Source of the DNA: Albidovulum sp.
GTDB lineage: Bacteria; Pseudomonadota; Alphaproteobacteria; Rhodobacterales; Rhodobacteraceae
Assembly (NCBI GenBank): GCA_026989275.1
Contig: JALSJQ010000024.1
Span: 1 to 64,000 of the forward strand
DNA: 64,000 nt
Direction: 5' to 3'
Part shown: positions 7,010 to 12,261 of the stretch, one piece after another
Layout of the letters: each line of letters opens with the position of its first letter
How positions within the stretch are numbered: the stretch's first letter is position 1
Notes under the pieces: model-generated
Databases searched by the model: none
What the model was told of the DNA's origin: nothing
What the model saw: the letters and a program-made list of their open reading frames with translations, nothing else
Translations under genes and position numbers: made by a program

Positions 7010-8317
7010 TTCGGCAAGGATCAGCGGCGGTGCGGGCAGGGGGCGCGGGCCGACGACACAGGCCTGCCGCAGCGCTTCGGCCGCAGCCATGAAGGCCGCC
7101 TCCGAGGCGGCGTGAATGGTGGCGAGCGGGGTTTCGGGGCCGACATGCTGGCCGATGCCAGCGATGTCCGACAGCCCCACCGCCGGGTCGATCCGCTCGC
7201 CTTGGCGTCGCCGCCCGCCGCCGAGCATCACCACGATCTCCCCGAGCCGGCGGGTGTCGATGGCGGTGACGAAGCCGGGTGTCGCGGGCGGCACGGGGCG
7301 GATGACGGGGGCGCGCGGCAGGATCTCGCGATAGCGTTCGAGAAGGTCCTTCGGCCCGCCCTGGGCGGCGATCATGGCGGCGAAGCGTTCGGCGGCGCGC
7401 CCCTCCTCGATCACCCTCTCGAGCCGCGCCGCGCCCGCCTTGCGGTCGGCGACCATGCCGGCCCTGGCGAGAAGGGCGCCGCCGAGGGCGAGGCTCAGAT
7501 CCCACAGCCGGTTGTCGATGTCGGTCATGGTCAGCAGATCGAGCGCCCGGGCCACCTCGAGCGCGTTGCCCGCCGCCGAGGCCAGAGGTTCGTTCATGTC
7601 GGTGACGAGGGCGGCGGTCGGGCAGCCGGCCCCTTCGGCGGTCGTCTTCAGCATCCGGGCGAGCGCGCGGGCGTCCGCCTCTTTCCGCATGAAGGCTCCC
7701 GATCCGGTCTTGATGTCGAGCACGAGGGCGTCGAGTCCCTCGGCGAGTTTCTTCGAGAGGATCGAGGCGGTGATGAGGTCGGGGCTCTCGATGGTGGCGC
7801 TTTCCTCGCGCAGCGCGTAGAGCCGCCGGTCGGCCGGGGCGATGTCGGGGCCGGCGGCGGCGATCACGCAGCCGATCTCGCCGACGATCGCACCGATCCG
7901 CTCGGCCGGCAGCGCGGTCGTCACCCCCGGGATCGCCTCGAGCTTGTCGAGCGTGCCGCCGGTATGGCCGAGGCCGCGGCCCGAGATCATCGGCACCCGG
8001 ACGCCGAGCGCGGCGAGGGCCGGGGCGAGGACGAGCGAGGTGCAGTCGCCCACTCCGCCGGTCGAGTGCTTGTCGAGCACCGGTGCGCCCCCGGGCCAGG
8101 CGAGGGTGCGGCCGCTTTCCTGCATGGCCCGGGTGAGGGCGACGCGTTCCTCCTCCGCAAGGCCGCGCAGGAAGACCGCCATGGCGAAGGCGGCGCCCTG
8201 GGCGTCGGTGACCGTGGCGTCGGCCAGCCCGGCGGCGAAGGCCGCGAGATCGGCTTCCTCGAGAGCGTGGCCGTCGCGCTTCCTCGCGATCACGCGCCGC
8301 GGATCGAAATCGCTCAT
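7004..8317 (-). CDS. deoA: Thymidine phosphorylase
   Basis: 437 residues, close to the usual ~440. It has the signature DKHSTGGVGD, the phosphate-binding SGRGLGHTGGTLDK segment and DIKTGSGAFM, which together define the pyrimidine nucleoside phosphorylase family. It splits thymidine or deoxyuridine with phosphate to give the base and deoxyribose-1-phosphate. The ATG at 8317 overlaps the cdd stop codon (ATGA), indicating translational coupling with cdd. deoB follows and handles the sugar phosphate. A longer reading frame upstream runs through cdd in another frame and was not used. Confidence 0.96.
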   Translation of the reverse strand: MSDFDPRRVIARKRDGHALEEADLAAFAAGLADATVTDAQGAAFAMAVFLRGLAEEERVALTRAMQESGRTLAWPGGAPVLDKHSTGGVGDCTSLVLAPALAALGVRVPMISGRGLGHTGGTLDKLEAIPGVTTALPAERIGAIVGEIGCVIAAAGPDIAPADRRLYALREESATIESPDLITASILSKKLAEGLDALVLDIKTGSGAFMRKEADARALARMLKTTAEGAGCPTAALVTDMNEPLASAAGNALEVARALDLLTMTDIDNRLWDLSLALGGALLARAGMVADRKAGAARLERVIEEGRAAERFAAMIAAQGGPKDLLERYREILPRAPVIRPVPPATPGFVTAIDTRRLGEIVVMLGGGRRRQGERIDPAVGLSDIAGIGQHVGPETPLATIHAASEAAFMAAAEALRQACVVGPRPLPAPPLILAEL

Positions 8318-8784
8318 GCGCCGCTCTCCCCGCCTTCTTCCCCGAGGTCGAGATGACGGGCCGAGGAAAAGGCCGACGGCAGCAGCGCGCCGATGGTGGT
8401 GCGCCGCCGCACCCCTTCGGGGCCGGCCATGAGAACGAGGGTGTCGGCGGTGGCGAATTCGGCGATCCGCTGGCGACAGCCGCCGCAGGGCGGCACCGGC
8501 GCCGGTGCATCCGCCAGGACCAGAATGTGGGTGATGCGTCGGCCGCCCGCGGCAACCATGGCGGCGATGGCTCCGGTCTCGGCGCAGCTGCCTTCGGGAT
8601 AGGAGGCGTTCTCGACATTGCACCCCGCATGAAGCGCGCCGCTCTCGTCCCGCAGCGCCGCACCGACCGCAAAGCCCGAATAGGGCGCATGGGCGTGGAG
8701 GCGGGCCGCGGCGGCCGCGGCGAGGAGCGCCGCCTCGATGTCGGGATCTGCGGGTGGTGCGGCGGGCGCTTCGGTTCCGGTCAT
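8314..8784 (-). CDS. cdd: Cytidine deaminase
   Basis: 156 residues. The zinc-site motifs are complete: CAETGAI (catalytic Glu) and PPCGGCRQ, with the substrate loop HAPYSGFAVGAAL and NVENASYPEG. It converts (deoxy)cytidine to (deoxy)uridine, feeding deoA. It is the first gene of the cdd-deoA-deoB operon, ending in a 4-bp ATGA overlap with deoA. The last ~20 residues (SARHLDLGEEGGESGA) extend past the core domain. GGGAGAACGCC precedes the ATG. Confidence 0.95.
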   Translation of the reverse strand: MTGTEAPAAPPADPDIEAALLAAAAAARLHAHAPYSGFAVGAALRDESGALHAGCNVENASYPEGSCAETGAIAAMVAAGGRRITHILVLADAPAPVPPCGGCRQRIAEFATADTLVLMAGPEGVRRRTTIGALLPSAFSSARHLDLGEEGGESGA

Positions 8785-8883: not shown

Positions 8884-10221
8884 TCAGCCTGCCCCCTTCT
8901 TCCAGTTCTCGCGCTTGCGATAGATGGTGGAAGGGGAGATGCCGAGCACCCGCGCGGCCCGCGGGATCGAGCCGCCCTCGCGGGCGATGGTGGTCTCGAT
9001 CACGATCCGCTCGATCTCGGTCAGCGGTCGGCCGACCAGATCCTCCACCAGAAGCGGCATCTCGCCCTTCTCCACCTCCTCGACGATCTCGGCCCGCACG
9101 GCCTCCTCCTCGAGATGCAGGATCTCGACCGGCAGCATGGTGCGGGTGACGCTTGCGCCGCCATGGAGCACGACGACATTGCGCAGGACGTTGAAGAGCT
9201 GGCGGACATTTCCGGGCCAGGGCAGCGAACGGAAAAGGGCCTTCACCTCGTCGTCGATGCGGGAGAAGCGCTTGCCTTCCTCGCGGGCGAGCTCGGCCAG
9301 CTTGACCTCGGCGATCTCCACCACGTCGTCCCCCCGTTCCCTGAGGGGGGGCATGCGCAGGGGAATGACGTGGAGCCGATAGAAGAGGTTTTCGAGCAGC
9401 CGGCCCGTGCGCACCGCCTCGTATGGATCGTGCCGGGAGGTGCAGACGAGGCGGATGTCGAGCTTTCGTGCCGATCCGCCATCGGGCCCCGGCAGGGCGC
9501 CGTCCTGGATGAGCTGGAGAAGACGCTGCTGGAAGGCGTGATCGGCCTCGCAGATCTCGTCGAGAAGGAGCGTGCCGCCGTCGGCCCTGGCGATCTGGTC
9601 GAGGCGCGGATCCTGCCGGGTCGCGGCCGCCTCTCCGGCGGGGCCGGCGCAGTTCAGCACGACGAAGGCTCCCCCGGCACGGGGCGAGGCGCGGTGCAGC
9701 GCCCGTGCCGCCATTTCCTTGCCCGTGCCGCTTTCGCCGGTGATGAAGACCGTGGCCATCGACGGGGCGGCGCGGCGGATCCGGCGGACGACCTTCTCCA
9801 TCGCCTTGGAGGAGCCGATATGGACATCGAAGAGCGGGCCGTTCTCCACCGGGGACGGGGCGAGGGCACGGGCGGCGTTCTCGACGGCGGTCAGGAGCCG
9901 CGCCTCGTCGAAGGGCTTGACGAGGAACTCGAAGGCGCCCGAGCGGATGGCCTCGACCGCCTTGTGGATCGAGGCGTTGGCGGTGATGATGATGACCCGG
10001 GTTGCGGGCGCTGTGGCCAGCATCTCCCGCAGAAGGTCCATGCCGTCTCCGTCGGGCAGCATCAGATCGAGAAGCACGATCCCCGGCCGCTCGCGGGCGA
10101 AGATCTCCCGCCCCTCGGCCATGCTGGTCGCCCCGATCGGCACATGGCCGGCGCGGGCGAGGATGCGTTCGTAGACGAGACGCATCGAGGGGGTGTCTTC
10201 GACGACAAGAACCTGATGCAT
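8884..10221 (-). CDS. NtrC-like response regulator lacking the GAFTGA sigma-54 loop
   Basis: 445 residues from the ATG at 10221; an ATG at 10233 is an alternative and neither has a clear ribosome site. Receiver domain residues 1-120 with acidic pocket Glu8/Asp9, phospho-acceptor Asp52, Thr80 and Lys102. AAA+ domain with Walker A GESGTGKE (162-169) and Walker B LLLDEI (about 218-223). C-terminal Fis-type helix-turn-helix (SIPRAARVLGISPSTIYRK). The stretch between NCA (190) and DGGT (214) is about a dozen residues shorter than in canonical NtrC proteins and contains no GAFTGA, the loop that touches sigma-54. By analogy with TyrR or Rhodobacter-type NtrC it may act with sigma-70 or purely as a DNA-bound ATPase (inference). 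No histidine kinase is adjacent. Confidence 0.85.
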   Translation of the reverse strand: MHQVLVVEDTPSMRLVYERILARAGHVPIGATSMAEGREIFARERPGIVLLDLMLPDGDGMDLLREMLATAPATRVIIITANASIHKAVEAIRSGAFEFLVKPFDEARLLTAVENAARALAPSPVENGPLFDVHIGSSKAMEKVVRRIRRAAPSMATVFITGESGTGKEMAARALHRASPRAGGAFVVLNCAGPAGEAAATRQDPRLDQIARADGGTLLLDEICEADHAFQQRLLQLIQDGALPGPDGGSARKLDIRLVCTSRHDPYEAVRTGRLLENLFYRLHVIPLRMPPLRERGDDVVEIAEVKLAELAREEGKRFSRIDDEVKALFRSLPWPGNVRQLFNVLRNVVVLHGGASVTRTMLPVEILHLEEEAVRAEIVEEVEKGEMPLLVEDLVGRPLTEIERIVIETTIAREGGSIPRAARVLGISPSTIYRKRENWKKGAG

Positions 10222-10605
10222 GGGTCCGAACATTTCGCGAAGGGGCGGGGGTGTCAATCGCGCCCGGCCCCGTCGGCGGCGGGCGGCCTGAAGACGGCGG
10301 CAGGGGCGGCGCCGGGGAAGGGTGCCGCAGTGCGGTGCCGGGGCGATGCGGGCGGGCAGGAAGACGCCGGGGGAGGCCGCCGGAGCCGGTGTGCGATTCG
10401 CGCCGCCTGCAGGGCTGCCAGGCCGGTTCGGTCGGGAAGGAGGTGTTTGCCGTTCGCGGAGGGGGCCGCGCGCATGGACAGGCCGTTTCGAGCCGCCTGC
10501 CCATCGCGGGCCGTCCGTCCACGCAGCCGACACCGCCCTTGCCCGGAGCGCCCGCGTCGCGCCGGAAGCGGCCCTTGTCCGCCTGTCACGCCCGGACGGC
10601 CGCGC
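10222..10605. other. 384-bp intergenic region, no gene seen
   Basis: Spacer between proS and the response regulator, both on the minus strand. Frames that remain open are Arg/Ala/Pro-rich. No obvious promoter, terminator or repeat. Confidence 0.45.
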
Positions 10606-11949
10606 TCATCCCGTTTCGGCGTAGATCCGCGCCAGCCGATCGACGGCGGCCTCGATGCTCAGCTCCTCGCTCTCGCCCGTGCGCCGCTCGGTGAGCTCGA
10701 CCCTGCCCCGGGCGAGGCCCCGCGGCCCGACGGTGATGCGCCAGGGCAGGCCGATGAGATCCATCGTCGCGAACTTGGCACCGGCCCGCTCGTCGCGGTC
10801 GTCATAGAGCGGTTCGAGCCCGCGGGCGCGCAGGGCGGCGTAGATCTCCTCGGCCGCGGCGTCGGTGGCGGCGTCGCCCTGCTTGAGATTGACGATCCCG
10901 GCATGGAAGGGCGTCACCCCTTCGGGCCAGACGATGCCCGCCTCGTCGTGGCTGGCCTCGATGATGGCGCCGACGAGCCGGCTCACCCCGATGCCGTGGG
11001 AGCCCATGTGCACCGGCACGCGCTCGCCCTTCTCGTTGACGACGAGAGCCTTCATCGGCTCGGAATACTTCGTGCCGAAATAGAAGATCTGGCCGACCTC
11101 GATCGCGCGGCTGCTGCGGCGCCGCTCGGCGGGCACCTCGGCCTCGAACAGGGCCGGGTCGTGGGTCTCGTCGGTGCGCGCGTAGGGGGTGGTCCATTCC
11201 TCGCGGATGGCGGCGCACTGGGCGCGGTCGTCATAATCGATGGTGCGTTCGCCCAGTTTCAGATCGAGGATGGCGCTGTCGAAGAAGACCTCCGATTCAC
11301 CGGTATCGGCCAGCACGAGGAATTCGTGGCTGTCGTCGCCGCCGATCGGCCCCGAATCGGCACGCATCGGGATGGCCTTGAGCCCCATGCGTTCGTAGGT
11401 GCGCAGGTAGCTCACCATGTGGCGGTTGTAGGCGTGGATGGCGCTTTCGCGGTCGATGTCGAAATTGTAGCCGTCCTTCATCAGGAACTCGCGGCCGCGC
11501 ATCACGCCGAAACGGGGGCGGATCTCGTCGCGGAACTTCCACTGGATGTGGTAGAGGGTGAGCGGCAGATCCTTGTAGGAGCTGACGTTCCTGCGGAAGA
11601 TGTCGGTGATGAGCTCCTCGTTGGTCGGCCCGTAGAGCATGTCGCGCTCATGCCGGTCGCGGATGCGGAGCATTTCGGGGCCGTAGGCGTCGTAACGGCC
11701 CGATTCGCGCCACAGCTCCGCCGGCTGGAGCGTGGGCATCAGCATCGGGATGTGACCGGCGCGCTGCTGCTCCTCGTGGATGATCTCCTCGAGCCGCCGG
11801 AGCACCTTGTAGCCGAGGGGCAGCCAGGCATAGATGCCGGCCGCGACCTGCCGGATCATGCCGGCGCGCAGCATCAGCCGGTGGGAGGCGATCGTCGCCT
11901 CGGCCGGGTTTTCCTTGAGAACGGGCAGGAAGTAGCGGGTCAGTCGCAT
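10606..11949 (-). CDS. proS: Prolyl-tRNA synthetase, short alphaproteobacterial form
   Basis: 447 residues, which fits the alphaproteobacterial ProRS that lacks the ~180-residue editing insertion of the enterobacterial enzyme. Class II motif 2 ([22 protein letters not shown]) and motif 3 ([10 protein letters not shown]) are visible, followed by the anticodon-binding domain (about 355-447). It charges tRNA-Pro in the cytoplasm. The start at 11949 (MRLTRYFLP) is preferred because AGGGA stands five bases before it; an ATG four codons earlier has no good site. Loss of cis-editing is known for this subtype. Confidence 0.95.
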
Positions 11950-12261
11950 CGGGTCCCTCATGGCTCGAATGGGTGTGTTGCGGCCTGATTAGGCCAAAGC
12001 CGCGCCTGGGGCAACGCATCGACAGGGCCGGCGGGGGCCGAGAGTTGCGCCGCGCGCTTCGTAGGGGCGGCGACGGGGGAGACGGGGCTGCGGCAGGACG
12101 ACGGCGGTGCCGAAGGGCGCAACGGGGCGGGGCCGGGGCCATGACGGGGCGGTGATGAAGCATCGGTGACGCGGTCGGGCATGCGGCGGAGTGCGCCGGG
12201 GCGCGTGATGCCGCGGAGCGATGACGGCGTGACGACGGGCTGCGCCGGGGCGGCCGGCGCG
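11950..12261. other. 312-bp intergenic region, no gene seen
   Basis: Between ppx and proS, both minus strand. G+C-rich with imperfect GCGCCGGGGCG repeats around 12190-12250. It must carry the proS promoter, but no confident -35/-10 pair can be named. Confidence 0.4.

Follow-up and report, generated by a model that had tools for sequence, protein, structure and literature searches.

A LuxO-like AprX orthologue without the GAFTGA loop, and the repeated loss of this motif alongside the cognate RpoN

Introduction

The window, the whole stretch of 64,000 nucleotides analysed here from an Albidovulum genome (Rhodobacteraceae), encodes a response regulator with the domain build of a sigma-54 activator, from which the GAFTGA motif required for contact with sigma-54 is missing. 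This locus raises the question of how such a regulator comes to lose its contact loop, and of what it does thereafter. Accounts of the turn from sigma-54 activator to sigma-70 regulator have so far drawn on single examples (NtrC, TyrR and HupR); HupR of Rhodobacter capsulatus, for example, is a GAFTGA-less bEBP that works with sigma-70.

A response regulator with a shortened L1 loop

The frame at 8884-10221 on the minus strand encodes 445 residues and a stop, with the following features:

8884..10221, minus strand: aprX-like gene for a 445-aa REC-AAA+-Fis HTH response regulator without GAFTGA (frame, Pfam, alignment)
9880..10212, minus strand: receiver domain, residues 4-114, acceptor Asp52 (Pfam PF00072; Asp52 invariant in the alignment)
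9718..9738, minus strand: Walker A GESGTGK, residues 162-168 (translation and alignment)
9583..9648, minus strand: shortened L1 loop, residues 192-213, with 12 residues and GAFTGA absent (alignment, comparison table)
9556..9570, minus strand: Walker B LLLDE, residues 218-222 (translation and alignment)
9376..9399, minus strand: arginine-finger region LLENLFYR, residues 275-282, with Leu in place of the first Arg and the second retained
8899..9027, minus strand: Fis-type HTH, residues 399-441 (Pfam PF02954)

Pfam places Response_reg at residues 4-114, Sigma54_activat at 135-288, the AAA lid at 294-374 and HTH_8 at 400-438; together with the alignment, these domains bear out a sequence-only reading of the locus, which had described an Asp52 receiver, Walker A and B motifs and a Fis-type HTH. 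That reading had also described an L1 loop about a dozen residues short and devoid of GAFTGA. In a 19-sequence alignment of the window protein and 18 relatives, with the deficit counted against the GSFTGA-bearing ones, exactly 12 columns are missing relative to C. sphaeroides-type AprX between NCA (190-192) and ADGGT (213-217), and the L1 stretch of the window protein contains no GAFTGA-like string. A detail absent from the earlier description is the arginine-finger region, which reads FREDL in relatives and LLENL here, the first Arg being replaced by Leu. The recognition helix SPSTIYRK is conserved with motif-keeping AprX.

The AprX of a sister species (G149) is 87% identical to the window protein, and in it the motif is likewise absent, with a slightly different remnant. 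Between the two species, the gene as a whole has a dN/dS of approximately 0.21, with values of 0.13 for the HTH, 0.08 for the lid and 0.80 for the linker. The shared absence of the motif and the whole-gene ratio together argue that the loop loss is not an assembly or sequencing error, and the ratio indicates that the gene is maintained; judged by this pair of sequences, the window AprX is under purifying selection.

An orthologue of the LuxO-like regulator AprX

AprX of Cereibacter sphaeroides (RSWS8N_13400) is described, in the available text of PMC11999139 (2025), as a REC-AAA+-HTH protein with GAFTGA/GSFTGA that works with RpoN3 for expression of xrpA, the gene for a repressor of ctrA and chpT in that species. 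The G051 copy is the best match of that genome to the window protein, at 53% identity, whereas the window genome's own NtrX, NtrC-like protein and third bEBP reach at most 37%. G051 is presumably C. sphaeroides: it holds four rpoN copies, one adjoining nifW and a homocitrate-synthase-like gene and another adjoining flhB, and upstream of its xrpA a C falls at -46 from the start, in the GC of a sigma-54 promoter, while the spacing from xrpA to hisN is 89 bp, both features matching the available text of PMC11999139. The best NCBIfam model for the window protein is LuxO (378 bits against a cut-off of 800), and the nearest outside matches, among the matches listed, are those of a Rhodospirillales MAG (43%) and a Vibrio (35%), in each of which GAFTGA is present. 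Vibrio LuxO keeps GAFTGA and acts with sigma-54 at the qrr genes, whereas the window protein lies far below the LuxO cut-off; besides the best model, the two systems share the LuxO operator consensus TTGCA-W3-TGCAA, found at the AprX target.

By these comparisons, with orthology and RpoN partner types both taken from single-gene trees, the window protein is an orthologue of LuxO-like AprX. It shares with C. sphaeroides AprX the REC-AAA+-HTH build (Pfam, with the HTH of Fis type), a conserved HTH and an xrpA in the same genome, and C. sphaeroides-type AprX is its best match; unlike that protein, which has GAFTGA/GSFTGA and needs RpoN3, it carries the 12-residue L1 deletion in a genome where rpoN was not found. 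Because both the motif and the RpoN3 dependence are wanting, the window protein is an orthologue by descent that falls outside the sigma-54-dependent AprX as published; in the available text of PMC11999139, only AprX proteins with an intact box are counted.

The sequence-only reading had likened the protein to TyrR and Rhodobacter NtrC. The Rhodobacter NtrC analogy fits as a mode of working, but by score the protein belongs to neither family. The NtrC model TIGR01818 gives 281 bits against a cut-off of 558.6, and a separate NtrC-like gene lies on contig C45; the TyrR model NF008085 gives 149 bits against 576, and the N-terminus is a receiver rather than TyrR's own.

Sigma-54 in the window genome

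A PF04552 profile search of the window genome (2.57 Mb, 50 contigs, 99.12% complete) returned no match, and neither did that of the sister species; PF04552 is present in 127 of 394 genomes of the bacterial family. The window genome encodes four bEBPs, all without GAFTGA. Since neither an rpoN match nor a GAFTGA-bearing bEBP was found in this genome, sigma-54 activation is excluded in practice. The other three bEBPs (L001, L003 and L004, contig C45) are NtrX, a PgtA/NtrX-like protein and an NtrC-like protein containing a long Pro/Ala linker; by NCBIfam, NtrX scores over its cut-off and the other two score under theirs.

The earlier inference that the regulator does not activate sigma-54 promoters is supported by the PF04552 result and by the way in which the loop and the cognate RpoN disappear together across the family, and hence more strongly than by the state of the loop itself. 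Relatives keep GAFTGA, and the loop was lost many times independently rather than on a single occasion in one clade. The loss takes the form of a 12-residue deletion in the window genus, and of other deletions or a Thr-to-Pro change elsewhere.

The motif and its RpoN partner across the family

AprX matches at 1e-60 or better were found in 105 of the 394 genomes, and the 105 rows analysed count G054 twice, for its two copies. Genomes with rpoN keep an intact motif in 72 of their 81 rows, and those without rpoN in 3 of 24 (Fisher 3e-12); two of these three motif-keeping genomes are only 76% complete. An AprX tree from which the loop columns were left out requires no fewer than 12 changes in the motif and no fewer than 15 in rpoN, and its well supported branches yield 6 independent pairs for rpoN against motif, mostly with 4-5 agreeing and 0-1 against (p approximately 0.06).

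Total absence of rpoN as the sole driver was rejected: nine motif-lost rows come from genomes with rpoN, and eight of them carry only non-cognate RpoN types. RpoN type was tested because of these nine rows. A tree was built of 79 RpoN proteins from 65 genomes, comprising 56 keeper genomes and all 9 losers with rpoN, without some second copies (e.g. that of G299). Three groups of 12, 27 and 17 rows, termed cognate here, contain RpoN of motif-keeper origin in 55 of 56 cases; the 17-row group includes G051c, which would correspond to RpoN3. Where a genome has RpoN of nif-type, fla-type or unassigned kinds only, the motif is lost. Cognate-type RpoN and motif occur together in 55 rows, RpoN alone in 1, the motif alone in 2 and neither in 28, giving 83 of 86 concordant in a count that excludes G068 and G122 (76% complete), G358, the second G054 copy and keeper genomes lacking a fetched RpoN. 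The motif is lost in 28 of 30 genomes without cognate-type RpoN. Overall, the motif tracks a particular RpoN lineage better than the presence of rpoN as such, although only 4 independent pairs on supported branches bear on cognate RpoN (p 0.125).

The discordant genomes are G362 (GSFTGA without rpoN), G125 (motif without cognate-type RpoN) and G054 (GSFSGA with cognate-type RpoN and the promoter). G362 (L103, L199) is 99% complete and gives no PF04552 match; it has kept GSFTGA and a 9/10 operator, and the sigma-54 promoter of its xrpA is absent, possibly following a recent loss of rpoN.

Promoter and operator upstream of xrpA

To follow the AprX target, xrpA was located by its spacing to hisN and was present in all genomes searched (25, 30 and 30); an XRE pattern search for the gene found nothing. 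The upstream sample comprised 22 of 72 keeper rows with rpoN, all 9 losers with rpoN, 20 of 21 losers without, G068 and G362; left out were G306, where the copy runs off the contig end, and G122, with an unusable start. The operator threshold (9/10), the promoter weights and the promoter cut-off (18.5 of 19.7) were chosen once the sequences had been inspected, and 30 AprX-free genomes were scored later with identical settings.

A sigma-54 promoter stands ahead of xrpA in all 22 keepers with rpoN that were examined; in the full sample the tally is 23 of 24 for keepers, 1 of 29 for losers and 0 of 30 for AprX-free genomes. Of the 24 keepers, 21 have the operator TTGCA-N3-TGCAA (9 or 10 of 10) at xrpA, as do 21 of the 29 losers and a single one of the 30 AprX-free genomes (losers against AprX-free, Fisher 1.5e-8). 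By these counts, the operator goes with AprX, independently of GAFTGA. Its position is mostly 140-330 bp upstream of the xrpA start, mononucleotide shuffles yield it in 0.7%, and its three middle bases, which were unscored in the search, are 92-97% A/T over 60 sites. The LuxO consensus is printed as TTGCAW3TGCAA in the available text of PMC11443567, and LuxO ChIP-seq peaks show TTGCA-W3-TGCAA in that of PMC10328515; a word search of the main text of PMC11999139 returned no mention of an AprX operator. A second element, AAACACGCAGA-like, directly follows the operator upstream of xrpA in many genomes, keepers and losers alike. In G007 (L397), a perfect TTGCAAAATGCAA lies upstream of xrpA with no AprX match at 1e-60; this genome may have lost aprX recently or hold a diverged copy.

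Within the window genus, only the sister species has a clear operator (10/10 at -332), the best match upstream of xrpA in the window genome being 8/10. With one mismatch allowed, the window genome contains 18 operator sites against 6 for a control pattern, most without an obvious regulatory role. The sole exact operator (L257, G000:C29:164856) lies in a stretch of odd composition, without a coding-like frame or one showing the codon-position GC usual for the genome, that is perhaps foreign DNA or contamination. A 9/10 operator, TTGCAACTTGCCA (L268), lies approximately 24 bp upstream of a frame that by eye resembles accA.

Protein evolution after loop loss

Domain divergence from the keepers' consensus was compared between 69 keepers and 29 losers, with 7 doubtful or partial rows excluded. 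The ratio of losers to keepers is highest in the AAA+ core (2.17) and lowest in the HTH (1.27). Losers retain the Walker A Lys in 27 of 29 rows and the Walker B Glu in 20, the second Arg of the finger region in 27 and the first in 24. Where the loop remains, the Thr of GAFTGA has become Pro in 12 losers by column count, of which G261 is probably misaligned; the 11 rows are L097, L094, L100, L051, L052, L050, L109, L115, L037, L134 and L135, and the best tree requires at least 10 such changes. Thr-to-Ala, the commoner neutral outcome that one might expect, is rare.

Competing explanations

The account that we consider probable is that loss of rpoN and deletion of the loop were accompanied by retention of AprX as a sigma-54-independent regulator, repeatedly across the family and with the xrpA operator usually kept. 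In the window lineage, rpoN would have been lost and the sigma-54-contact loop of AprX deleted, and purifying selection would have kept the loopless protein as a sigma-54-independent regulator that binds DNA and probably nucleotide. Family-wide, where the cognate RpoN goes missing, the loop would decay and the sigma-54 promoter of xrpA vanish, and the LuxO-type operator would usually stay. A phosphorylated AprX oligomer would then probably bind the operators and regulate a sigma-70 promoter, by analogy with R. capsulatus NtrC. In the window protein, the retention of Asp52 and of Walker A and B together with the loss of the finger Arg is consistent with a phosphorylatable, nucleotide-binding oligomer that does not remodel. 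We infer operator binding by AprX, a sigma-70 partner and xrpA as target in the window species, as we do the sign of the effect and the roles of phosphate and ATP in loopless AprX.

According to the available text of PMC10274813, NtrC of R. capsulatus and Caulobacter are bEBPs with an L1 deletion that removes GAFTGA and are reported to act at sigma-70 promoters, an action that in R. capsulatus involves binding of ATP and not its hydrolysis, and VspR of V. cholerae is a further GAFTGA-less bEBP acting with sigma-70. These NtrC proteins form another orthologous group, in which the loss is order- or genus-wide, whereas in AprX it recurs in separate lineages as the partner is lost (PMC10274813 for NtrC). 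The window genome also encodes a loopless NtrC-like protein of its own.

It is quite possible, if short of probable, that loopless AprX is a repressor, occupying the old enhancer sites and blocking or bending the promoter instead of activating sigma-70 polymerase. The loss of ATP-remodelling residues (the finger Arg here, Walker B in relatives) fits such a static DNA binder, and a scan near the operators found no clear or recurrent sigma-70 promoter, although one at a fixed operator distance is often expected under class I/II activation. However, the operators, mostly approximately 170-330 bp upstream of the xrpA start, sit at the old enhancer positions, which would be unusual for simple repression, and retention of the Walker A Lys in 27 of 29 losers also speaks against repression.

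Somewhat unlikely, in our view, is a move of AprX in the window genus to other targets, such as the adjoining cdd-deoA-deoB genes, with xrpA control lost. The surroundings of the gene are:

10606..11961, minus strand: proS, upstream neighbour on the same strand (NCBIfam NF008979)
10222..10605, minus strand: proS-to-aprX intergenic region, 384 bp
8314..8784, minus strand: cdd, first gene of the downstream cdd-deoA-deoB (NCBIfam)

A gap of 99 bp separates aprX from cdd, which follows it on the same strand; this arrangement would suit such a move, as would an xrpA operator of only 8/10 and the near absence of exact sites elsewhere. Against it, the cdd-deoA-deoB neighbourhood is common to motif-keeping and motif-losing relatives (partial synteny), and tblastn synteny places cdd close to aprX at 11 of the 66 loci of relatives, of which 7 have the motif and 4 lack it; the presence of this neighbourhood in motif-keeping relatives points to an arrangement that is old and does not reflect a new function. 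The HTH has altered little, its identity to the keepers' consensus being 0.72 where keepers themselves average 0.77, and the operator search of the window found nothing above 8/10. The 384-bp proS-aprX region holds no LuxO-type operator (best match 6/10), and an Rfam scan of the window gave 0 matches. The description of the regulator as an orphan in the sequence-only reading holds as far as its immediate neighbours go (proS upstream; cdd, deoA and deoB downstream).

Passive decay, in which AprX and its operators erode after rpoN loss and loopless proteins do nothing specific, strikes us as improbable. It would account for the 2.17-fold divergence of the losers' AAA+ core, for the 9 of 29 losers without the Walker B Glu and the 2 without the REC acceptor Asp, and for the weak xrpA operator of the window species, but not for dN/dS values of 0.21 (gene), 0.13 (HTH) and 0.08 (lid), for operators kept in 21 of 29 losers against 1 of 30 AprX-free genomes, or for HTH residues Ser431, Thr432 and Arg435, which are invariant in all 29 losers. 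A diverged rpoN, contacted by a non-canonical loop and missed in a 50-contig assembly searched with PF04552 alone among sigma-54 domains, is very improbable, given that the family's divergent RpoN with a full-length domain score approximately 1e-31 or better, that the sister species has no match either, that all four bEBPs are GAFTGA-less and that the xrpA sigma-54 promoter is gone.

Implications

Loss of the partner would thus, on what we regard as the best reading of these sequences, have repeatedly made AprX a sigma-54-independent regulator of its old target. On balance, we lean towards the view that in at least ten lineages, following loss of the cognate RpoN, AprX regulates the same xrpA via an unchanged operator, often with the Thr-to-Pro change. 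Keepers, losers and intermediates occur here in one orthologous group with a known target and a candidate operator, so that the order of steps and the roles of residues become testable; the intermediates are GSFSGA with the promoter in G054 and GSFTGA without rpoN in G362. These data also lend comparative support to the AprX-RpoN3 partner specificity, so far shown in a single species, and suggest an AprX operator that is unnamed in the main text of the 2025 paper (PMC11999139). Surveys filtered on GAFTGA miss the loopless AprX orthologues. If our reading is true, the passage from sigma-54 activator to ordinary regulator would follow regularly and predictably once the partner is lost.
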